DNA from: Candidatus Poribacteria bacterium
GTDB taxonomy: Bacteria > Poribacteria > WGA-4E > WGA-3G
Length of the DNA: 7,119 bases
Assembly (NCBI GenBank): GCA_028818995.1
Contig: JAPPMR010000202.1
Coordinates: 1-7,119, forward strand
Direction of reading: 5' to 3'
A program made the position numbers and the translations under genes. The notes beneath the pieces were generated by a model, which saw only the letters and a list, made by a program, of their open reading frames with translations, made no database searches and had not been told where the DNA came from. Below, piece after piece: positions 1 through 7,119 of this stretch (positions are counted from its first letter, which is position 1; every line of letters begins with the position of its first letter).

Positions 1-887
1 ATCCCAGCCCCTACATTTTTCCCAGGTGCAGCAGACCGACCAAACCGGCTCCGTATAGACGGTTTTGATACAACATCAAGAACGATAGGTGCATCAATGA
101 TTTCAATAGTAGGTTCAGATCTCGCCTCGAAACTATACGGCTTTTGAAACCGAGTAAGATATTGTTGACTAACACCCAGCAGGAACATAACCAAAATTGT
201 CGCCGCGCCGAAAGATACCCACGGCACTAACGGTTTTCCAGACGGATGAATCGTCGGGTTAATATCGGCGACTTGCCGCATAATGCGCGCCGTTAAATCA
301 GCAGGTAACTGCACGCTCCGAAGCACTTCGCTCACCAAGGATTTTGACGCTTGTAGACGCTCTCGTCCCCGGCGAAGCCGACTTTTTATTGTGTCTACCG
401 ACACACCTAAGAAGTTGCCTATCTCCCTCACCGTCATCTCGCCAAGATAGTAGAGTGTCACGACTGTCCGCTCACTCTCTGGCAACCTTTTTAAAAGTTT
501 TTTGACAATCTCAGAGTTCTGCTCAGCGGCGTCTGCCTCACGCTCCAGCGTTACGTAATGTGTATAAGAGGATTCATCTATCTCTTCCAAGGGTGTCTCT
601 TCCAGCGACTGCATCGCTGGTTTATGCCTCTGAATCCAATTAAGTGTCAGTCGATGCGCAATCACATACAACCATCCGGCAAAACACTTATGCTCTTTCA
701 AGGTCCCAAGTTTTTTGTATACTTGAAGAAAAACATCTTGGGTCAGTTCTTCCGCATAGTGAAAATCTCCTATCTTTCGCCAGATAAGCGCGTGAACCCC
801 CTTCTGATGCCTTTCGACCAAGGTATTGAATGCCGAATCATCACCTGATAAAATCCGCTGTATTAACTGAACATCATTTTCCAACAT
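1..887 (-). CDS. ECF-type sigma-70 family RNA polymerase sigma factor with membrane-anchored C-terminal extension (partial, runs off left edge)
   Basis: The frame is open from an ATG at 887 to the window edge (295 codons, no stop). GGAGG at 894-898 lies 6 nt upstream of the ATG. Residues about 8-88 form sigma region 2: an EELTQDVFLQVYKKL core-binding helix (46-60) and a region 2.4-like FAGWLYVIAHRLTLNWI (69-85). Residues about 127-180 form region 4, with a helix-turn-helix MTVREIGNFLGVSVDTIKSRL (151-171). ECF factors normally end near here (about 180-200 aa). This one continues with a basic linker, one hydrophobic segment (about 222-239, WVSFGAATILVMFLLGV) and a Pro/Ser-rich tail, so it probably tethers itself to the membrane. 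The expected role is directing RNA polymerase to stress or envelope promoters; no separate anti-sigma gene is visible. From memory the tail resembles poribacterial sigma factors. Copy A of the repeated element lies about 217 nt upstream, suggesting autoregulation. Confidence 0.93.
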   Translation of the reverse strand, partial: MLENDVQLIQRILSGDDSAFNTLVERHQKGVHALIWRKIGDFHYAEELTQDVFLQVYKKLGTLKEHKCFAGWLYVIAHRLTLNWIQRHKPAMQSLEETPLEEIDESSYTHYVTLEREADAAEQNSEIVKKLLKRLPESERTVVTLYYLGEMTVREIGNFLGVSVDTIKSRLRRGRERLQASKSLVSEVLRSVQLPADLTARIMRQVADINPTIHPSGKPLVPWVSFGAATILVMFLLGVSQQYLTRFQKPYSFEARSEPTIEIIDAPIVLDVVSKPSIRSRFGRSAAPGKNVGAG

Positions 888-1089
888 TAGAGACCTCCGA
901 GACGAATACACGCTCCTATATCCTTCCAAATTTAGGAACACTCGGCAGTAAGATACGCAAGGTTCCCGACGAACACCTAACAGTTAACTACACTGCCTCA
1001 AACCCTTGAGATTATAATGTAGGTGGTCGATTCCTGTTTCAACCAAATTCAATAGAGTGTGAGATAGAAAAGAATCCTTCACGACACCC
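888..1089. other. Sigma-factor 5' leader / intergenic DNA
   Basis: No gene is visible in this stretch, which would be the long untranslated leader of the sigma factor if transcription starts at element A. On the minus strand it holds a TATAAT-like hexamer (1011-1016) without a well-spaced -35 box. Closer to the gene is a GGAACC (about 960-966) with GTGTTCC further down (about 934-943), loosely like an ECF -35/-10 pair. Neither is strong enough to call as a promoter. Confidence 0.4.
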
Positions 1090-1136
1090 TCTTTAAATAT
1101 AAAGACACAACTTTTTGAAGGAAAGGGTGCATTATA
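1090..1136 (-). promoter_or_regulatory. Repeated element copy A (ATGCACCC-N16-GTGTC plus hairpin), upstream of the sigma factor
   Basis: On the minus strand ATGCACCC (1132-1125) is followed after exactly 16 nt by GTGTC (1108-1104). A 6-bp, 4-nt-loop hairpin TCTTTA/TAAAGA (1090-1105) overlaps its end. Copies B (5157-5202) and C (5445-5494) share both boxes, the same 16-nt gap, an A-rich patch before GTGTC and a following hairpin. It points at the sigma gene 217 nt downstream. It could be an ECF-type promoter (TGCACC about -35, TGTC about -10) or a transcribed 5' element. The repetition is seen directly; the function is inferred. Confidence 0.6.
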
Positions 1137-1159
1137 AAAAATAAAAAGCAAATTTGCAA
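1131..1159 (-). promoter_or_regulatory. Candidate sigma70-type promoter for the sigma factor gene
   Basis: The minus strand reads TTGCAA (1159-1154), 17 nt, then TATAAT (1136-1131). That is a perfect -10 box, optimal spacing and a 4/6 match to TTGACA. It lies inside the 3' half of the terminator hairpin and its U-tract, so AT-richness may produce it by chance. A start about 7 nt after TATAAT would fall in the ATGCACCC box of element A. Confidence 0.35.
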
Positions 1160-1179
1160 TCAAAATTGCAAATTTGCTT
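1137..1179 (-). terminator. Rho-independent terminator of the Cys-rich peptide gene
   Basis: Positions 1146-1160 and 1165-1179 form a perfect 15-bp inverted repeat with a 4-nt loop. On the minus strand the hairpin is followed at once by TTTTT, A, TTTTTT (1147-1137). It sits about 50 nt after the peptide stop codon, so the transcript carrying the peptide should end here and be separated from the sigma gene. The stem is rich in A-T pairs but long and uninterrupted. Confidence 0.85.
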
Positions 1180-1230
1180 GAAATCGTATGGGATTTCGAC
1201 TGCGAAAAACAGTGGAAACACAAACACGGA

Positions 1231-1494
1231 TTAACTATCATAAACACACTTAGATTCCCATGTTACACAAGTACCCTCGGAGTACTCTTTACATGCCCAA
1301 TCACACCGCCCCTCCGAGCCACAATCATCATTGCTCAAACACTCAAGTCCAGCTTCGGCGGATGGTGTATGGATTCCTTGCGATAATAAAAGGGTTCCAC
1401 TTGCTACACCCAAAGCCAACGGTGCCCGTATACCAACCCGTCCACTCTCAGATGTAAGAAACCGCTTTGCTCTATCGCGTGTCTCCTTTTTCAT
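1231..1494 (-). CDS. Secreted six-cysteine small peptide; candidate substrate of the adjacent PqqD-domain glycosyltransferases
   Basis: This encodes 87 aa. The ATG at 1494 is chosen because AGGAGG (1503-1508) lies 8 nt upstream; an in-frame ATG at 1533 has no ribosome site. Residues 1-24 are charged (MKKETRDRAKRFLTSESGR, then VGIRAP). Residues 25-41 are hydrophobic (LALGVASGTLLLSQGI). TPSAEA (43-48) is a good signal peptidase I site, giving a mature peptide of about 39 aa. That part holds Cys 52, 58, 64, 68, 76 and 83 (C-x5-C-x5-C-x3-C-x7-C-x6-C), enough for three disulfides, plus several Ser/Thr and two Trp. The spacing recalls small secreted Cys-rich folds (C-x-N-x-D-C start). It is the last gene of the glycosyltransferase cluster and ends in a strong terminator. 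Modification by the neighbouring enzymes is inferred from RRE domains and position; I do not recognise the family. Confidence 0.8.
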   Translation of the reverse strand: MKKETRDRAKRFLTSESGRVGIRAPLALGVASGTLLLSQGIHTPSAEAGLECLSNDDCGSEGRCDWACKEYSEGTCVTWESKCVYDS

Positions 1495-1502
1495 TTGGAT
1501 TT

Positions 1503-1508
1503 CCTCCT
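1503..1508 (-). promoter_or_regulatory. Ribosome binding site of the Cys-rich peptide gene
   Basis: AGGAGG on the minus strand is a full Shine-Dalgarno match 8 nt before the ATG at 1494. It selects this start over the in-frame ATG at 1533, which would add MAGCKSGRKEEIQ and spoil the signal-like N-terminus. The strength of the site suggests high translation, as expected for a peptide substrate. Confidence 0.8.
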
Positions 1509-1538
1509 TTCTGCCGGATTTACATCCAGCCAAATTAA

Positions 1539-1571
1539 TTTTCCAAACTTAGTTGGAAAACCTATTCCAAC
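1539..1571. promoter_or_regulatory. Overlapping, mutually exclusive inverted repeats in the leader of the Cys-rich peptide gene
   Basis: TTTTCCAA (1539-1546) pairs perfectly with TTGGAAAA (1553-1560) across a 6-nt gap. The central arm, as GTTGGAA (1552-1558), also pairs perfectly with TTCCAAC (1565-1571) across another 6-nt gap. Three TTGGAA-type half-sites therefore alternate about every 13 nt. This could be a tandem operator for a dimeric repressor, or an RNA switch with two competing hairpins. It lies 45-77 nt before the start codon. Confidence 0.55.
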
Positions 1572-1577
1572 ATCAAA

Positions 1578-1674
1578 GACCTACTTGAAAATCAGGCGTA
1601 GAGGTCCTCTTTTGTCTTAACTTCACATTCTCAATTCAGTAGACTTATAGGGTCAATCTCCGCTGAAGTAGGTC
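1578..1674. repeat. 9-bp inverted repeat spanning the glycosyltransferase-peptide intergenic region
   Basis: GACCTACTT (1578-1586) is the exact reverse complement of AAGTAGGTC (1666-1674). The right arm overlaps the TGA stop (1673-1675) of the upstream glycosyltransferase. In the shared transcript the arms could close a stem around 79 nt of leader just upstream of the overlapping inverted repeats. At this separation a 9-bp match may be chance, so the functional call is weak. Confidence 0.35.
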
Positions 1675-3355
1675 AAGGTTTCATACCACTTCCAAATGCA
1701 AAGTTGCCCCGCTGTTGAACAGATCTTTCCATCTTGAAATGCTTGAAAACCGACGCTACTTCAGTCGATTTGTGCTGTTCCATGAGTGTCTCTGCCAAAG
1801 CTTTTTCGAGATGTTCATACCTGTTAATCCCCAATCTATACACATTGGATGTTATTTTACGCGTCTCAGAACTATACCGACGACAGAAAATAGGACGGAA
1901 CAAATTTTCATCCCTTGGATAACTCCTCGTCATCAACGGATGGTTCTCTTCAAACACTCGGACAATATTTTTTGCTGTCTTCTGCCAAGTGTATTTCCGA
2001 GCGAAACCTTTCGCAATCCGTTCATATTCAGCGCGCATCTTAGACGGTTCTAACCCTTGATTGATCGCTGCCGAAAGCGGGTTCATGGATACATGAAAAT
2101 CACCAAAATTATTCCATTCCAATCCGATACTCACCCCTGCCCCGTTCACTTCTGTAGGGAGACCGTATTTCGTCATGGCAATACACGGGGTTCCATAAGC
2201 CATTCCCTCTAAAACCACTGAAAGCGGTGTCCCTGGCATTGCAGGAAAACAGACCAGATCCAGTGCCTGAAAGAAAAGCGGCAAAATTGCTGACATCTCC
2301 TTATCATCTGTCCTGAAAATCACTACATTGTCGGGCGGATTCTTATAGTGCTGTGCTAATACATAATCATAGACAAAAATCGAGAGGTGTGAGTTGGCGC
2401 GGGCAAACGCAGAAATCCACTCTGCTCCAAGGTTCGGCTCAAATCCAGAAATCAATCCAACGATGGAGCGTTCGGCAAACTGCGGTTTATCAAAAATAGC
2501 AGCAGTGTGTTGCTTCGCTAACCCTTTATCAATCGGTTCAACAACGTTGATACCGTCGGGAATCACATGGACATGTCTTTCCGGAATACCAAACTCACTC
2601 AACCATTCCTTCATCCATGATGCTTTGACAACCAAACTATCATTCGTTTTCTGGGCTACATAGAGCGCCAAGAGTGATTCAAGCAGCGAACTTTGTAGTT
2701 TCTGGCTGTTTTCTATACAGTGAACAATTGGAATATCTGGGACCTGATAGTATAACAGGTCATTCTCCATTAATTGAGAAAGCAGTAAAATACCATCATA
2801 TCCTTCCCTGGCATACCATACAGGTACAAAGGTATCGTCCTCATCATTTGTTATCTGCCGAATACGAATCTTCCCTAAATCTCTCTTGTTCCCTGGGCGT
2901 ATACCGCCATCTCTGACTTGCGAAAAAGCCAGCGTCTCTAACGATGCTTTACGCGTAAGGGCAGATAAAAGTTGATACCGATTCATAGTCGTGATGTAAT
3001 CAATCGATGATTCTTCTTCCCTAAAACCGAATGGAACCAACAATCGGAGTTCCCGACGTACAGGTTGAGAGGCGTTAAACTCACCAGATGACTCGGGCAT
3101 CTGTGCTAAAAGTTGTCCTCGCTTACCAAACCACTCCAACCGTTTAATCCCTTCAAAAACGGATGACACCTTATACTTTTTTTTCAAAGCTTCAACAATT
3201 TGATACTCCGTCTGAGTCCCATAGCGACTCAGGATATCCCATTCTACATCGTTGATTTCAATGATGTCGTGGGTTTCAAGGTCAGCAACATATTTGCGTC
3301 CCTCTCGTTCAAATTTATGGTGGGATTTTAAGCGATAACCTAAGTTATGTGTCAC
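1673..3355 (-). CDS. PqqD-like (RRE) domain fused to GT4-type glycosyltransferase, with first Glu of the EX7E motif missing
   Basis: This encodes 560 aa from a GTG at 3355. Residues about 8-84 match the PqqD fold pattern: KYVADLETHDIIEIN (21-35), a helix with an IVEALKKKY motif (53-61), then a GIKRLEWFGKRGQL helix (69-82). PqqD-like domains bind leader peptides in RiPP pathways. Residues about 100-475 are a GT-B fold GT4-type transferase: VIPDGIN (264-270, the usual acceptor/donor hinge motif), VGLISGFEPNLG (299-310), ALDLVCFPA (364-372) and LSVVLEGMAYGTPCIAM (378-394). The second Glu of EX7E is E383, but the first is G375, so activity may be altered or lost. An unassigned basic tail follows (about 475-560). 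There are no membrane segments, so it should be cytoplasmic. The gene begins 23 nt after its sister glycosyltransferase and precedes the Cys-rich peptide, so all three look co-transcribed. The sugar and true acceptor are not visible. Confidence 0.88.
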   Translation of the reverse strand: MTHNLGYRLKSHHKFEREGRKYVADLETHDIIEINDVEWDILSRYGTQTEYQIVEALKKKYKVSSVFEGIKRLEWFGKRGQLLAQMPESSGEFNASQPVRRELRLLVPFGFREEESSIDYITTMNRYQLLSALTRKASLETLAFSQVRDGGIRPGNKRDLGKIRIRQITNDEDDTFVPVWYAREGYDGILLLSQLMENDLLYYQVPDIPIVHCIENSQKLQSSLLESLLALYVAQKTNDSLVVKASWMKEWLSEFGIPERHVHVIPDGINVVEPIDKGLAKQHTAAIFDKPQFAERSIVGLISGFEPNLGAEWISAFARANSHLSIFVYDYVLAQHYKNPPDNVVIFRTDDKEMSAILPLFFQALDLVCFPAMPGTPLSVVLEGMAYGTPCIAMTKYGLPTEVNGAGVSIGLEWNNFGDFHVSMNPLSAAINQGLEPSKMRAEYERIAKGFARKYTWQKTAKNIVRVFEENHPLMTRSYPRDENLFRPIFCRRYSSETRKITSNVYRLGINRYEHLEKALAETLMEQHKSTEVASVFKHFKMERSVQQRGNFAFGSGMKP

Positions 3356-3371
3356 TGATTCATATTCCTCC
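3353..3371 (-). promoter_or_regulatory. Unusual translation initiation region: three-codon minicistron overlapping the GTG start
   Basis: On the minus strand GGAGG (3371-3367) is followed 3 nt later by ATG-AAT-CAG-TGA, whose stop overlaps the GTG start of the glycosyltransferase (GTGA). The SD-to-GTG distance is 11 nt, rather long, and SD-to-ATG is 3 nt, rather short. Ribosomes could start on either. The N-terminal PqqD alignment supports the GTG as the real gene start. Confidence 0.45.
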
Positions 3372-3378
3372 TTTCATG

Positions 3379-5124
3379 TTATGCAGTCGCCTGTATTAAG
3401 CCGTGAACCCTTTTAAGTGTCGCCTTTGCTCGTTCCTCATCCTCAACCACCGCAGCAAGGACTGCCTCGGCTTCCCTCACAGTGTGATTCTTCAAAATGC
3501 TTAACGCAAGACCGTCCTCAACATGCATGGAATAGGCTGTATCCCTTATTAGACAGCGCTCATAATGTTGATCCATCCCCAATACAATCGATTTGTATTT
3601 CAACCACTCACTGCCTTGATGTGTTAAGCCGTCCGCTTCTAAACCATGAGTTGCTTCTGACGGCGTCGGTACGAACATATTTAAAAGTCTATTTGGATTG
3701 ACAAGCCGTCTCTTTTCGTGGAGTCTCTCAAAGCACTTCATAATCCGTCGCGCCGTTTTGTCCCAAGTGAACAACTCTGCCCGTTCTCTTGCCTTCCGAG
3801 AAAGTTCTTGTCGCATTTCCTCATCATTCAGTAGCAAATTAATCTTCTCCGAAAAATCTAAGGGTGAAGGGTAACTTACAACCGTCGCTATATCCTCTTC
3901 AAAGCTCTCGGCATCGGCAATCAGCCCCGTATTTCCAACAACCGATGGCACACCATCAAAATTGGGAACGATCGGTGGAACACCACATGCCATCGCTTCA
4001 AGAACTGTCAAGCCAAAGGTTTCCTCGCCTGACATTGAAAGGAAACAGTAGACGTCAAATGCGTTATAGACCATCGGCAACTTCTCGCGCGGATGGAATC
4101 CGGCGTAGACGAGATTATCAGGAAGTTCCCTCGATTGATATCTTCCAAGGTTCGGACCCGCAATCAAAAACAAAAAATGCGGATTCAACTCAGCGAGTTT
4201 CAAGTAGACAGAAGCCCCTTTTTCAGAATCTACCCGAGAAAGATAACCAACTGTTGGAGTTGTTACAATACGCTCGTCTCCAACCTGTTCAGCCAACTCT
4301 CGCTTGGCTTTTTGTTTATTCATCGGACGGAACAACGCCGAATCTACACCATTGGGGAGTGTATTAAAGAAACTCGAATCCCATACATAATCCGAATAGA
4401 ACTCCCGGACATAATCCGATGGTGCTGTGAAAGCATCAAAATCTCGCATCGCCGCGTAATGCCGCAATATGGAGTTTATCGCCTTCCCCCCATGTCCACG
4501 AGGGGCATGACACTGAACTAAGATCGGTGGGAGTTCTATATGTTCGTAAAGTGGTAGCAGCCACGTTTCCTGGTCGCGATGTAAGGTAAGAATACCGAAA
4601 TAGGTTTCATTGATCCTTCGGCTGAGTCTACCGAAGTCAGACACCTTAACATCAACTTCATACACGTTATCCGCTAATTTTCGATTTTGGTTGCCTGTAA
4701 AATGGAGATCTACGTATTTGGTGAGGTGTTCAAACATGTAAGACAATGCCATGTTCGTCCCCGCATACAACGTTTCAATATCAAAATACGAGTCAACATT
4801 GATACCCGGTATCGCAACAAGCAACTTCCGCCGATCCGCTCCTACTGAGATGATCTCCTCGAGATTTTTACCGCGATTGAATACTAACCCTTCCTTTTCG
4901 AATTCTGCAAATCTCTCAAACGCTTCATAAATCTCGTCCTCTGCATAAGTGGTTTTCAGGACCTGGACAATTTCTTCATTTGTCTGCTCTTCCGCCAGTT
5001 TCAGGATGTCGAACATTACGGCGGAGAGTTCGATAATGCTCGCTTTTTCAAGGTCTGCAGCATAAAACACCGCATCCTTTTCAAAGAGGTAAAGCGGGTG
5101 TAAAATTCTTGGGAAATCAAACAC
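3379..5124 (-). CDS. PqqD-like (RRE) domain fused to GT4-type glycosyltransferase with intact EX7E motif
   Basis: This encodes 581 aa from GTG at 5124, chosen because GGAG (5131-5134) lies 6 nt upstream and the PqqD-like domain begins at once. An upstream in-frame ATG (5277) would add 51 residues translated from repeated regulatory DNA. Residues about 7-84 are PqqD-like: FYAADLEKASIIELS (20-34), EEIVQVLKTTYAEDEI (50-65), AFERFAEFEKEGLVF (68-82). Residues about 98-470 are a GT4-type GT-B enzyme: QCHAPRGHGGKAIN (204-217), LPNGVD (256-261), VGYLSRVDSEKG (292-303), then EETFGLTVLEAMACGVP (367-383) with EX7E Glu368 and Glu376. A tail of about 110 aa (471-581) is unassigned. There is no signal peptide, so it should be cytoplasmic. 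It is the promoter-proximal gene of the cluster, 50 nt after element B. Family knowledge predicts retaining transfer from a nucleotide sugar; the acceptor is inferred to be the Cys-rich peptide. Confidence 0.9.
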   Translation of the reverse strand: MFDFPRILHPLYLFEKDAVFYAADLEKASIIELSAVMFDILKLAEEQTNEEIVQVLKTTYAEDEIYEAFERFAEFEKEGLVFNRGKNLEEIISVGADRRKLLVAIPGINVDSYFDIETLYAGTNMALSYMFEHLTKYVDLHFTGNQNRKLADNVYEVDVKVSDFGRLSRRINETYFGILTLHRDQETWLLPLYEHIELPPILVQCHAPRGHGGKAINSILRHYAAMRDFDAFTAPSDYVREFYSDYVWDSSFFNTLPNGVDSALFRPMNKQKAKRELAEQVGDERIVTTPTVGYLSRVDSEKGASVYLKLAELNPHFLFLIAGPNLGRYQSRELPDNLVYAGFHPREKLPMVYNAFDVYCFLSMSGEETFGLTVLEAMACGVPPIVPNFDGVPSVVGNTGLIADAESFEEDIATVVSYPSPLDFSEKINLLLNDEEMRQELSRKARERAELFTWDKTARRIMKCFERLHEKRRLVNPNRLLNMFVPTPSEATHGLEADGLTHQGSEWLKYKSIVLGMDQHYERCLIRDTAYSMHVEDGLALSILKNHTVREAEAVLAAVVEDEERAKATLKRVHGLIQATA

Positions 5125-5130
5125 TTTTTT

Positions 5131-5134
5131 CTCC
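5131..5134 (-). promoter_or_regulatory. Ribosome binding site that decides the GTG start of the first glycosyltransferase
   Basis: The minus strand reads GGAG, six A residues, then GTG. The spacing is ideal and no comparable site precedes the in-frame ATG codons at 5277, 5235, 5226, 5202 or 5181. Starting here places element B wholly in the untranslated leader. Confidence 0.7.
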
Positions 5135-5156
5135 AATCTTTTCGTTGTTTGTAATT

Positions 5157-5202
5157 GTGCTCTTAAAATTAAGGACACCATATTTTGTGGCAGGGGGTGC
5201 AT
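5157..5202 (-). promoter_or_regulatory. Repeated element copy B, upstream of the glycosyltransferase operon
   Basis: On the minus strand ATGCACCC (5202-5195) and GTGTC (5178-5174) are separated by exactly 16 nt. The second box opens a hairpin, GTGTCCTTA paired with TAAGAGCAC (5157-5178), including one wobble and one mismatch. The start codon is 50 nt downstream. This would be the promoter or leader element of the operon; its upstream edge merges with direct repeat copy 5200-5228. Confidence 0.6.
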
Positions 5203-5228
5203 AATTTGAAAAAAATATGCGAACATAA
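5200..5228. repeat. 29-bp direct repeat, copy 1
   Basis: This is identical to 5344-5372 at 24 of 29 positions with no gaps (CATAATTT, variable A/G run, AATATGCGAAC, one change, TAA). The start-to-start distance is 144 bp. It overlaps the ATGCACCC box of element B, so it may be an activator or operator site for the glycosyltransferase operon, or the trace of a local duplication. Confidence 0.6.
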
Positions 5229-5343
5229 AATGCATAAAGTCCCACCAAACCCGCACATATTTCGGTATGAAAGCCACAATTTATCAAGGAATAAGGCATA
5301 ATTCGCTGATAAAAAATCAATAATCTATTGCGAAAAAGAGATA

Positions 5344-5372
5344 CATAATTTAGGGAAAATATGCGAACGTAA
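5344..5372. repeat. 29-bp direct repeat, copy 2
   Basis: This is the second copy of the sequence at 5200-5228, lying between the divergent elements B and C. It has no ATGCACCC box: the bases outside the 29 bp differ, so the repeat is not simply a duplicated element B. Between the two copies is a 7-bp inverted repeat, TTTATCA (5280-5286) and TGATAAA (5307-5313); no gene is seen here. Confidence 0.6.
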
Positions 5373-5444
5373 CACGCCAACTTGATCTTTACTGGAAAGC
5401 AAAGGTGCTACTTTAGAAGTGCAGATAAAAATTAAAGTATCAGA

Positions 5445-5494
5445 ATGCACCCTCAGTAACCCAAAATTGTGTCCTTAAATAATAAAGGGACGCA
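5445..5494 (+). promoter_or_regulatory. Repeated element copy C, upstream of the 63-aa small protein
   Basis: On the plus strand ATGCACCC (5445-5452) and GTGTC (5469-5473) are 16 nt apart. The second box opens an 8-bp hairpin, TGTGTCC with GGGACGCA (5468-5494), held partly by G-U pairs. The start codon of the small gene is 72 nt further on. With copy B facing the other way about 240 bp away, the region is a divergent control region. Confidence 0.6.
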
Positions 5495-5544
5495 ATCTGA
5501 CATAAGAAATATAGAACAATCCACCCAGAGAGGAGGAAATAACA

Positions 5545-5736
5545 ATGCGTATTGATTCACTGGTTAAACATGTCGAAAGTCTCAACGATAGCATTCGCGT
5601 TGAGAGAACAGATGAATATCTTAGCGTAAAAGGGAACACGTATTATGTGAGGGGCAAATTGAAGCTATTAGGTTTTCGATGGAATCCCAATAAGCGAGAA
5701 TGGTATTACATGGTAAAAGGGATGGACTCAAACTAA
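5545..5736 (+). CDS. Small protein with LG-x-RW-x-P-(x)4-EW motif (DUF5710-like)
   Basis: This encodes 63 aa, ATG at 5545 with AGGAGG (5531-5536) 8 nt upstream, so it is well supported as a real small gene. There is no signal peptide or membrane segment. The C-terminal half reads KGNTYYVRGKLKLLGFRW (29-46), then NPNKREWYY (47-55). This LK-x-LG-x-RW-(D/N)-P-x(2)-K/R-x-W pattern is seen in short domains such as DUF5710, found in bacterial and phage DNA-metabolism contexts. Molecular function is unknown. It is transcribed divergently from the glycosyltransferase cluster and shares the same class of upstream element (copy C). It could belong to the same regulon, for instance as a small regulator, but the sequence does not show that. 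Confidence 0.75.
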   Translation: MRIDSLVKHVESLNDSIRVERTDEYLSVKGNTYYVRGKLKLLGFRWNPNKREWYYMVKGMDSN

Positions 5737-5761
5737 AACGAATCTGGAGAGCTTACAGCGT

Positions 5762-5902
5762 TTAGGTTGAAATAACGGCGGGCCATTCAGGGACAATTTT
5801 GACAGCGAGTATTGCCATACTTTCACCGGCAAAGATGCCTAATCCAATACCGATGGCACCGCCTACGCTACATATTATCACCGCCTCTATTAAAAACTGA
5901 AA
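5762..5902 (-). pseudogene. Remnant of MacB/FtsX-type ABC transporter permease (C-terminal transmembrane fragment)
   Basis: The minus strand from 5902 encodes FQFLIEAVIICSVGGAIGIG, LGIFAGESMAILAVKI and VPEWPAVIST, then TAA at 5764-5762. QFLIEAV-x(4)-GG-x-IGI-x-LG is the hallmark of the last part of MacB-like permeases, and PAVIS begins the following segment. Intact proteins (about 400-650 aa) continue with another membrane helix and a conserved PA-x-x-A-x-x-DP-x-x-AL end, absent here. No start, SD or upstream permease sequence is visible: the frame enters directly from the end of the TolB-like gene. This looks like a fossil left by deletion. It gives no usable exporter for the peptide cluster. 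Confidence 0.7.
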
Positions 5903-5904
5903 AC

Positions 5905-6885
5905 CTATTCTGCTTTCAGTTTTCCCCATATTGTCGTCAGCAATTGGGGTTGTGGTGAAACTGGCAATGCATACGCTGGATCAAACCAATCCACTGGACT
6001 ATTCCAGATGCCAATATGCGTGAGTTGTTCTGACTGACCTCCATTCAAAGCGATTTTGAAGATTTGCTTCGCTTCGTGTTTCCATCTTGCATAAAGGAGT
6101 TCATCCCCTCGTGGGGACCAAACCGGATCCGTCGCTCGCGGACCGGCTTCATCAACAATTTGTGTAAGCCCTGTGCCATCACGATTCACAACATAGATTG
6201 TCTCCCTATTCTCGAAGGCAACAAGCGGCACTTTATGTTGCCAAGAAAACGCAAGTTTGTCGCCTTCTGGAGACCACGCCGGGATAGAGCCCATCCACGT
6301 GGGCATCGCCTTGGGTGGAAAAAATACTTTCTGTTTTCGTGTACGTACATTGAGGATATGCATTTCCCAACGGTCCTGTCCCGCTTTGACGGTATAAACT
6401 ATTTCCATCCCATCCGGCGACCATGCAGGACCGCTGCCAATCGCCAAGCGTTCTTCTTTTTTGCTGTCTATTGAAGCGATATAAATAACCCTTTTGCCTT
6501 GCTCGCGTCGTGTATAAGCGATCTGTTTGCCATCCGGCGACCACGTCGGAGCTTCCCTATGGACAGATTTTCCGAACACCCGTCGTACCTTTTGCCCATC
6601 GATATCCATCAGATATAGGTCATACCCTCCGTCTCGGTCAGAAGCGAAAAGAATCTGCTCCCCCGTGGGGGACCAAGCACCAGAGATGTCATCTGCTGGA
6701 TGGTTCGTTACGTTAATCTGCTCACTTCCATCTATATTCATCAGGTAGAGGTCTCGATTTCCCTCACGGCTTGCTCCAAACAGGATTTTCGCTGTCTTGG
6801 GTGCTTTTGCCAACACAGGACAGATTCTTGCTCCTAACAGGGTGCAGGTAAAAACGAAAATAAGGACTGGTATTGACGGTTTCAT
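5905..6885 (-). CDS. Secreted TolB-like six-bladed beta-propeller protein (PD40 repeats)
   Basis: This encodes 326 aa, ATG at 6885 with GGAGG (6894-6898) 8 nt upstream. Residues 1-26 are a Sec signal peptide (hydrophobic 5-19, VLA before K27); C22 does not sit in a good lipobox. About six propeller blades follow. Their ends are AWSPTGEQ (70-77), TWSPDGKQ (114-121), AWSPDGME (154-161), AWSPEGDK, VWSPRGDE and a final VDWFDP. Two blades carry DLYLMNIDG/DLYLMDIDG strands (45-53, 89-97). These are PD40/TolB-C repeats. Classical TolB (about 430 aa) has an additional N-terminal domain that is lacking here, and no tol/pal genes are adjacent. It is therefore probably a free-standing periplasmic or extracellular propeller for protein or glycan binding rather than TolB itself. 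It is transcribed alone; the next minus-strand sequence is a permease fossil. Confidence 0.85.
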   Translation of the reverse strand: MKPSIPVLIFVFTCTLLGARICPVLAKAPKTAKILFGASREGNRDLYLMNIDGSEQINVTNHPADDISGAWSPTGEQILFASDRDGGYDLYLMDIDGQKVRRVFGKSVHREAPTWSPDGKQIAYTRREQGKRVIYIASIDSKKEERLAIGSGPAWSPDGMEIVYTVKAGQDRWEMHILNVRTRKQKVFFPPKAMPTWMGSIPAWSPEGDKLAFSWQHKVPLVAFENRETIYVVNRDGTGLTQIVDEAGPRATDPVWSPRGDELLYARWKHEAKQIFKIALNGGQSEQLTHIGIWNSPVDWFDPAYALPVSPQPQLLTTIWGKLKAE

Positions 6886-7083
6886 AAAAATCCCCTCCGA
6901 AACTTAGGATAGAAGCGTTGATCCGATCAATATACCATTAAATGTCCGATGCGTTGATATACTCAGAGCGACATTCCTACTTCCTTTCAATTTCTATTCC
7001 ACCCGATGTCTGACTGAATCGCCTTCTATGCCTATACTTCAAATCTACTTTTCTCAAGGTTCAAAAGCACATTAGAGGAAGAA
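6886..7083. other. Intergenic region upstream of the TolB-like gene, with short palindrome and direct repeat
   Basis: No gene is seen. TTGATC-C-GATCAA (6918-6930) is a perfect 6-bp palindrome about 33 nt before the TolB-like start. The word GCGTTGAT occurs at 6915-6922 and again at 6951-6958. On the minus strand two TATAT-containing stretches (GGTATATTGATC and AGTATATCAACG) could be -10-like. These may mark an operator/promoter, but nothing here is decisive. Confidence 0.35.
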
Positions 7084-7119
7084 ATGCCGGGGCGCATTGT
7101 GGCAAAAGCTATCACGCCC
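7084..7119 (+). CDS. Possible 5' end of a gene running off the right edge
   Basis: ATG at 7084 follows AGAGG (7074-7078) with 5-nt spacing and stays open for 12 codons (MPGRIVAKAITP) to the edge. This is too short to recognise, and the opposite strand is also open here. It is a candidate only. Confidence 0.25.
   Translation, partial: MPGRIVAKAITP

Follow-up and report, generated by a model that had tools for sequence, protein, structure and literature searches.

Can a sugar be aimed at one chosen peptide by the kind of leader-binding domain that guides other peptide-modifying enzymes? This question is raised by a locus in a Candidatus Poribacteria bacterium (NCBI GenBank assembly GCA_028818995.1, contig JAPPMR010000202.1, positions 1 to 7,119 of the forward strand; the window, as used here, is this whole stretch of 7,119 nucleotides). 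Its minus strand carries two tandem genes, GTB and GTA, whose products join a recognition element (RRE) of ribosomally synthesized and post-translationally modified peptide (RiPP) pathways to a glycosyltransferase-type domain, then a gene for an 87-residue peptide, then an extracytoplasmic function (ECF) sigma factor gene running off the window. The positions of the open reading frames (ORFs) agree with the trio described by the original prediction, which was made from the letters alone, including its strand and the six Cys of the peptide:

3379-5124, minus strand: GTB, 581 residues from a GTG at 5124; RRE plus glycosyltransferase family 4 (GT4)-type domain, proposed catalytic subunit.
1673-3355, minus strand: GTA, 560 residues; RRE plus GT-B-fold domain, proposed pseudo-glycosyltransferase partner.
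1231-1494, minus strand: precursor peptide gene, 87 residues, six Cys in residues 49-87.

The reading favored here, to which a probability of about 65 per cent is given on the strength of sequence comparison and structure prediction, is that these genes form an RRE-guided peptide glycosylation system, in which GTB would be the active enzyme, GTA an acceptor-binding partner and an A24 prepilin-type peptidase the likely leader peptidase, the chemistry itself being predicted. It draws on computed results for the RRE domains, the altered GTA site, gene linkage, the leader/core split of the peptide, the A24 peptidase of relatives, a promoter motif and an RNA element.

The answer begins at the N-termini of both proteins, where the following domains lie:

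4870-5100, minus strand: RRE (PqqD-like) domain of GTB, residues about 9-85, from profile, model and Foldseek.
3101-3337, minus strand: RRE (PqqD-like) domain of GTA, residues about 7-85, from a profile comparison with CteB and hhalign to the GTB domain.

The original prediction placed a PqqD-like/RRE domain on both enzymes, to be checked by profile and Pfam comparison, and profile matches to CteB together with the predicted fold bear this out. The N-terminal profile of GTB matches the RRE-bearing maturase CteB (PDB 5wgg/5why) at E 7e-12, that of GTA matches it (5wgg) at E 8.6e-6, and the two domains match one another with an hhalign probability of 99.1. As modelled by AlphaFold2, GTB residues 1-105 (mean predicted local distance difference test score 76; residues 11-80 in blocks of 83-95) consist of three strands and three helices in the order of the RRE topology. 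In a Foldseek search with this model, ranks 1-15 were all taken by proteins that bear RREs, namely CteB, TbiB1 and a lasso B1 protein (each with its leader), McbBCD chains and ThcOx; E was <0.001 for ranks 1-3 (all CteB), 0.02-0.06 for ranks 4-9 and 0.4-0.9 for ranks 10-15. Pfam alone stayed below threshold, with single-sequence PqqD matches at E 0.16 and 0.14 for the two proteins. Two single-contig genomes hold four sub-cut-off PqqD matches (E 0.002 to 0.04) in GTB or GTA copies; since 13 of 14 control genomes have weak PqqD matches as well (E up to 1), above the cut-off in three, such matches are weak evidence and the profile and fold results alone are counted. On these, the N-terminal RRE/PqqD-like domain is genuine in both GTB and GTA, and leader binding is predicted. 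The same leader-binding winged-helix fold stands at the N-terminus of RiPP enzymes such as CteB, TbiB1, McbB, SuiB and others, CteB being closest by sequence and fold. Their RREs, however, have radical S-adenosylmethionine, cyclodehydratase or lasso partners, whereas here the partners are GT4-type glycosyltransferases.

What such a domain might bind is found in the peptide, which falls into three parts:

1441-1494, minus strand: residues 1-18, the charged leader, with SE-x-G at its end; proposed to be bound by the RRE and cut off by A24.
1351-1440, minus strand: residues 19-48, hydrophobic, with a closing A-x-A that may be a site for signal peptidase I, from alignment A1.
1234-1350, minus strand: residues 49-87, variable six-Cys core; proposed mature disulfide-rich glycopeptide.

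Judged by its homologs, the peptide is a member of a real family and no chance ORF: a single-sequence query returned 41 proteins, including the window's own, at 56-100 per cent identity, and profile A2 reached 740 clusters in a database clustered at 90 per cent identity. Mean column entropy, computed on 37 of the 41 A1 rows after four that were partial or divergent had been left out, is 0.59 bits for residues 1-48 versus 1.83 bits for the non-Cys core, and the alignments too show a conserved leader and a variable Cys-rich core. This split rests on entropy and not on the ratio of nonsynonymous to synonymous substitution, for which six sequences gave a small contrast of little weight (leader 0.20, core 0.36). 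The locus has what is expected of a RiPP system: an encoded precursor, a conserved leader and a variable core beside putative modifying enzymes. Neither A1 nor A2 shows any change at S15, E16 and G18, and neither has Gly-Gly before the core, in line with the predicted lack of a double-glycine leader. The conserved Gly is followed by x-[VIAT]-x-x-[KR], where the +5 residue is K 63 times and R 51 times in the 114 sequences that bear the motif (115 were collected, some from overlapping loci), and a charged residue at +6 to +24 occurs in just two of the 108 unique members among them. A-x-A at residues 46-48 stands directly before the core. A charged leader with a Gly just before one hydrophobic stretch is therefore present, and by sequence the N-terminal signal resembles that of prepilins as well as a Sec signal. 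The Sec-type signal of the original prediction stands as a likeness; as a description it is incomplete, given the invariant SE-x-G before the hydrophobic stretch and the A24 peptidase in the clusters of relatives.

The number of core Cys is even in 96 of the 108 unique members (three of these without any Cys in the counted region). A disulfide core with an O- rather than an S-linked sugar would fit these mostly even numbers, and the same count makes S-glycosylation of an unpaired Cys, as in sublancin, seem less likely. A G-[TS]-C motif is present in 69 of the 108. The window peptide has no family match in Pfam or NCBIfam at E 1. In scans of 35 members, Cys-rich families (squash inhibitors, EB, DX, WAP and others) matched weakly, the best at 4e-4 (DX, one member), as did DUF4342 in 14 of the 35 (best 0.0029); neither was taken as membership.

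Whether both proteins could transfer a sugar depends on their donor sites. GTB matches Pfam Glycos_transf_1 at E 8e-26 and has R297, K302 and the E368 and E376 of EX7E, kept in 14 of 14 aligned orthologs; as R/K plus EX7E makes up the GT4 donor site, GTB has both the family match and an intact site. For GTA, the match to GT4 Pfam models is weak (E 2e-4, under the cut-off) and the predicted structure is a GT-B fold. These family matches, weakly for GTA, uphold the predicted GT4-type rather than SunS-type enzymes. The GTA donor site is not intact: the Arg is replaced by Gly304 and the first Glu of EX7E by Gly375 in 50 of 50 aligned relatives (alignment A9, chosen rows comprising the window, 36 of 120 listed proteins out of 540 found, and 13 loci). 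A strict pattern for the Gly304 motif matched 97 of the 120 listed proteins, and the GTA of the window is 86-91 per cent identical to its three nearest relatives. Because the donor-site Arg and first Glu are lost in every aligned relative, GTA looks like a pseudo-enzyme, and from these residues GTB is probably the single active enzyme with GTA as its partner. Such an active/inactive pair offers a testable parallel to GtfA-GtfB, which differs in having Ser-rich repeat adhesins as substrates and is not known to carry an RRE. In the accessory Sec system, GtfA-GtfB pairs an active GT4 with an inactive acceptor-binding subunit, according to PMC12809243.

The original prediction also considered two enzymes acting in sequence on one site or on different sites. 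The tandem pair is conserved, each member carrying an RRE and a GT-B-type domain, and of the 50 GTA rows 46 still have the latter Glu of EX7E and 15 have Arg at the otherwise variable Lys position, as might be expected if two sugars were added. That both are active is nevertheless quite unlikely, with Gly in place of both the Arg and the first Glu in all 50 rows. A common C-terminal region with conserved His and Glu was seen in both proteins (GTA residues 488-545); the GTA model gives it strands and then two helices, with modest confidence.

If GTB and GTA serve the peptide, the three genes should travel together. In the genome collection, 15 GTA-bearing loci were found, all labelled Candidatus Poribacteria or uncultured Poribacteria, and in 15 of 15 a GTB gene and a peptide-family ORF lie beside GTA. 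A survey of 84 genomes of the phylum gave GTA in 26 (55 matches), GTB-type proteins in 33 (97 matches) and the peptide profile in 37 (191 matches). The peptide occurs in 26 of 26 genomes with GTA versus 11 of 58 without (Fisher p 2e-13, uncorrected for kinship). Among the 150 listed of the 191 peptide matches, one lies within 10 kb on the same strand for 51 of the 55 GTA matches, 39 of them within 500 bases, and GTB is within 700 bases of 46 of the 55. Four GTA genes have no listed peptide: one is cut by a contig end, two end about 50 and 160 bases from one, and the fourth has about 2 kb of contig left, in which no peptide was found. Two genomes with GTB (G016, G075) lack the peptide in the profile survey; on local reading, weak peptide matches lie by the pair (L088, L089). 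The peptide and the RRE-glycosyltransferase pair thus travel together, and the outcomes named beforehand as refuting, namely no RRE match, or fusion pairs consistently lacking a Cys-rich peptide and sitting in polysaccharide or lipopolysaccharide clusters, were not found.

The clusters of relatives add further genes. An A24 prepilin-type peptidase of about 390 residues is encoded in 11 of the 15 loci, with the order GTB-GTA-A24-peptide in L005, L006 and L007, and in 38 of the 84 genomes (105 matches). It scores 24.6 bits against the Pfam model (cut-off 26.5) in the cluster protein scan and above the cut-off in whole-genome searches, and its catalytic Asp motifs TD and GD are invariant in 12 rows, so that family match and motif are both present. 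Other recurring neighbors are a methyltransferase, a UshA-like/cytochrome c554/DsbA-like protein, TolB-like propellers, an ECF factor and two sugar genes. One of these encodes a nucleotidyltransferase whose nearest matches are mannose-1-phosphate guanylyltransferases, the other a phosphomannomutase-like enzyme; neither reaches the curated cut-off of NCBIfam. The cluster of G043, the genome to which L008 belongs, opens with the sugar genes, continues with GTB, GTA, peptide, TolB-like, methyltransferase, A24 and peptide, and ends with a TolB-like fragment, a second GTB, GTA, peptide and the sigma gene (L091, L092).

GT4 enzymes commonly make glycans and lipids, and with sugar-nucleotide genes near in relatives the pair might build a polysaccharide or lipid glycan and be tied to the peptide by regulation only. 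This is extremely unlikely, given a dedicated RRE on both proteins, the GTB-GTA-peptide order and the peptide in all 26 GTA genomes; moreover, no flippase or polymerase family appeared among 10 scanned proteins of the relatives' clusters, which are part of the neighbors. The pair might instead modify another partner, such as the TolB-like propeller, with the peptide an unmodified secreted knottin or signal. A TolB-like gene does lie within 900 bases after 29 of 45 peptide genes (loci L062-L081). Even so, there is very little likelihood of this: the window and several relatives have GTB-GTA-peptide without a TolB-like gene directly after the peptide, and known RREs recognize precursor leaders, as stated in PMC12710340. 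Peptide genes were seen to alternate with TolB-like propeller genes in L067, L068, L070, L075 and L080. There is also a second, divergent cluster type (L069, L073, L074, L077-L079) with RRE-glycosyltransferase pairs, other leaders, which retain only E-x-G, and its own A24; second-type peptides of L079 have no Cys in the core region.

Several results count against a glycosylation system of this design, among them the PqqD matches that stay below threshold and recur in control genomes and the GTA residues that are still kept. Core Cys numbers are odd in 12 of the 108 members, and G-[TS]-C is missing from 39. The A24 gene is absent inside the window, so that its role is read from relatives, and the A24 profile found nothing among PDB sequences at E 10. 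Of 83 A24 matches used for distances (the weakest 22 of 105 being left out), 32 have no listed peptide within 10 kb; two of these (L069, L073) lie in the divergent second-type cluster with a weakly matching peptide nearby. In four genomes, loci L062-L065 hold the peptide with TolB-like, A24, UshA-like and sigma genes and no RRE-glycosyltransferases. Since such clusters exist, leader conservation is not due to the RRE alone; the peptide-A24 link is at least as basic as the peptide-glycosyltransferase link, which sets a limit to reading the leader as made for the RRE. The peptides of L062-L065, probably one lineage, have four-Cys cores without G-[TS]-C, which fits, and does not prove, a role of this motif as a modification site.

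These same loci bear on another explanation, namely that the peptides are pilin-like (Flp- or pseudopilin-type) subunits, cleaved by A24, held in the membrane or built into filaments, and glycosylated by the RRE-glycosyltransferases as pilins are elsewhere. The charged N-terminus, the invariant Gly before one hydrophobic stretch, the A24 genes and the peptide-A24 clusters without glycosyltransferases all suit it. According to PMC3244431 and PMC12075869, Flp/Tad prepilins with TadV-type A24 peptidases share the charged leader, the Gly before the hydrophobic stretch and a dedicated A24, and prepilins usually have D/E at +5 (PMC3244431). Here, by contrast, the pattern (G/A)-x4-(D/E) is absent, with K/R at +5 in 114 of 114 sequences, a finding that also counts against the favored reading; Tyr is lacking at +6 in A1 and A2, the core is Cys-rich and the peptidase has a long C-terminal part. 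No match to Flp, TadE or TadF of Pfam was found among the 35 members scanned, under filters that drop most matches above E 0.1, and the 10 cluster proteins scanned, which are part of the neighbors, include no member of a pilus ATPase or platform family. The conserved A-x-A would suggest core release, and the variable Cys-rich cores seem unlike filament subunits. Pilin-like subunits are on balance unlikely.

For an RRE-guided glycosylation system, the steps may be pictured as follows. The RRE domains of GTB and GTA would bind the conserved charged N-terminus of the 87-residue precursor. GTB would then attach a sugar of the hexose type to the core, in the simplest case O-linked to Ser/Thr, from a GDP-mannose-type donor made by the genes clustered in relatives, and the sugar is perhaps mannose or a derivative. 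GTA, with its damaged donor site, would serve as the acceptor-binding partner. The leader may be removed by the A24 peptidase after the invariant Gly18, by signal peptidase I after A48, or by both, and the core would be exported, its six Cys pairing as disulfides. As regards the glycosylation by RRE recruitment put forward originally, the RRE, linkage, leader/core split and relatives' sugar-nucleotide genes speak for it, and the glycosylation step itself is still a prediction.

The system invites comparison with the glycocins sublancin and glycocin F, which are likewise Cys-rich glycosylated peptides, as is proposed here. Glycocins depend on SunS-type enzymes, double-glycine leaders and ABC exporters, whereas here RRE-GT4 proteins, a prepilin-like leader, A24 in relatives and mostly even Cys counts are found; with neither a SunS-type enzyme nor a double-glycine leader, the peptide does not fall among the glycocins. 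The RRE-Finder paper (PMC7470986) names RRE-glycosyltransferase fusions among potentially novel clusters, and a 2025 paper (PMC12710340) names fusions of PF00535 with the RRE. Both express the same idea as a mention only, and PF00535 differs from the GT4 Pfam families found here; the main texts of the two papers do not mention Poribacteria. No paper joining prepilin peptidase, RiPP and leader peptide was found in a literature search lacking most subscription journals, and a term search of a review of RiPP leader proteases did not find "prepilin". An RRE-glycosyltransferase fusion is therefore not new; the assembled system, the pseudo-enzyme, the A24 partner and the scale appear new, as far as literature searches reach. 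It is most likely a new variety of RRE-guided, glycosylated RiPP-like system, its chemistry, sugar and cleavage being predicted features.

How the gene set might be switched on is suggested by a promoter-like motif and the sigma factor gene:

5174-5200, minus strand: promoter-like motif GCACCC-N16-GTGTC, upstream of GTB.
1104-1130, minus strand: promoter-like motif GCACCC-N16-GTGTC, upstream of the ECF sigma gene.
5447-5473, plus strand: promoter-like motif GCACCC-N16-GTGTC, upstream of a 63-residue plus-strand ORF.
3-887, minus strand: ECF sigma factor, proposed regulator, with Sigma70_r2/r4 matches; incomplete at the window edge.

The pattern GCACCC-N(12-22)-GTGTC occurs three times in the window versus 0.03 expected, and 57 times in 82 sequences, from partly overlapping loci, versus 1.3 in mononucleotide shuffles. 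The window and 35 loci have 45 sites with spacing 15-16, and the first labelled gene after the site is GTB (12), sigma (11), the 63-residue ORF (7), the peptide (5), the sugar nucleotidyltransferase (2), TolB (1) or a methyltransferase (1), with none at six. Genome-wide counts in four genomes are 12 to 26 versus 4 to 6 for a reversed-pattern control; of the 12 in G043, seven are on the same contig as the cluster. The ECF factor, encoded beside these genes, probably switches the set on. Its counterpart in a relative (L008:12365-15340) has about 990 residues; the C-terminal part of that protein was seen to match Sortilin/BNR-type propellers weakly.

Many peptide start codons are preceded by two hairpins and a ribosome-binding site, as in the window:

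1492-1579, minus strand: structured 5' untranslated region of the peptide gene, two hairpins and then the ribosome-binding site, from covariance model R1.

R1 scores 73.8 bits at 1492-1576, the window row being one of its seeds. The structure was drawn from the same sequences used for the covariation counts, namely alignment A10, 50 of 76 unique upstream stretches, leaning towards the structure and omitting second-type leaders, loci without glycosyltransferases, near duplicates, a false hit and several members in which no hairpins could be seen. In these 50, 83.7 per cent of cells pair versus at most 56.5 per cent when slid, and 46 cells are changed on both sides versus 23.4 in shuffles, none of 500 shuffles being as high. 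Two stricter measures fall short of extreme values, with 11 pairs changed on both sides versus 8.5 (23/500) and 30 pair types versus 27.5 (83/500), and RNAalifold unaided predicts the second hairpin alone, in which pair 63-82 is CG in 31, UA in 10 and UG in nine, with none broken. In four genomes, where 150 of 1387 to 1705 candidates per genome were scored, R1 found 35 matches, all at peptide starts: 34 end at a listed peptide start and the last precedes a peptide gene with an internal deletion. This restriction is partly expected, as several matches are seeds, the model includes flank and peptide units have probably been duplicated together. Second-type, some first-type and glycosyltransferase-less peptides match the model weakly or not at all. 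Rfam gave no family at the gathering threshold in five sources; two weak matches in one 261-base stretch were judged chance.

A broader proposal, held at slightly short of even odds, is that of a new RiPP class in which one prepilin-like signal serves as both RRE leader and A24 substrate. Its fast-diversifying disulfide-rich peptides would be glycosylated by an RRE-GT4 enzyme together with a pseudo-glycosyltransferase that also bears an RRE, and would be switched on by a cluster-specific ECF sigma factor, many of them having their own RNA element as well. If true, it would give RRE-glycosyltransferase fusions a coherent family, in 26 to 37 of 84 Poribacteria genomes, and join prepilin-type processing and RiPP leader removal, two fields without overlap in the literature searched. 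RRE-guided glycosylation would be a new way of aiming sugars at chosen peptides. The 740 peptide clusters, with up to 21 matches per genome, suggest a large unseen set of disulfide-rich peptides in Poribacteria, which would then be a glycopeptide repertoire.

One more feature adjoins the cluster:

5545-5736, plus strand: ORF of 63 residues, conserved in relatives.

Counterparts of this ORF (at least 60 residues, 54-89 per cent identical) are found in eight of the 15 loci. Further along, a short FtsX/MacB-like ORF at 5762-5929 on the minus strand lies just downstream of the window's TolB-like gene and is perhaps a remnant, a fuller MacB-like permease standing beside the TolB-like gene in the relative L003.

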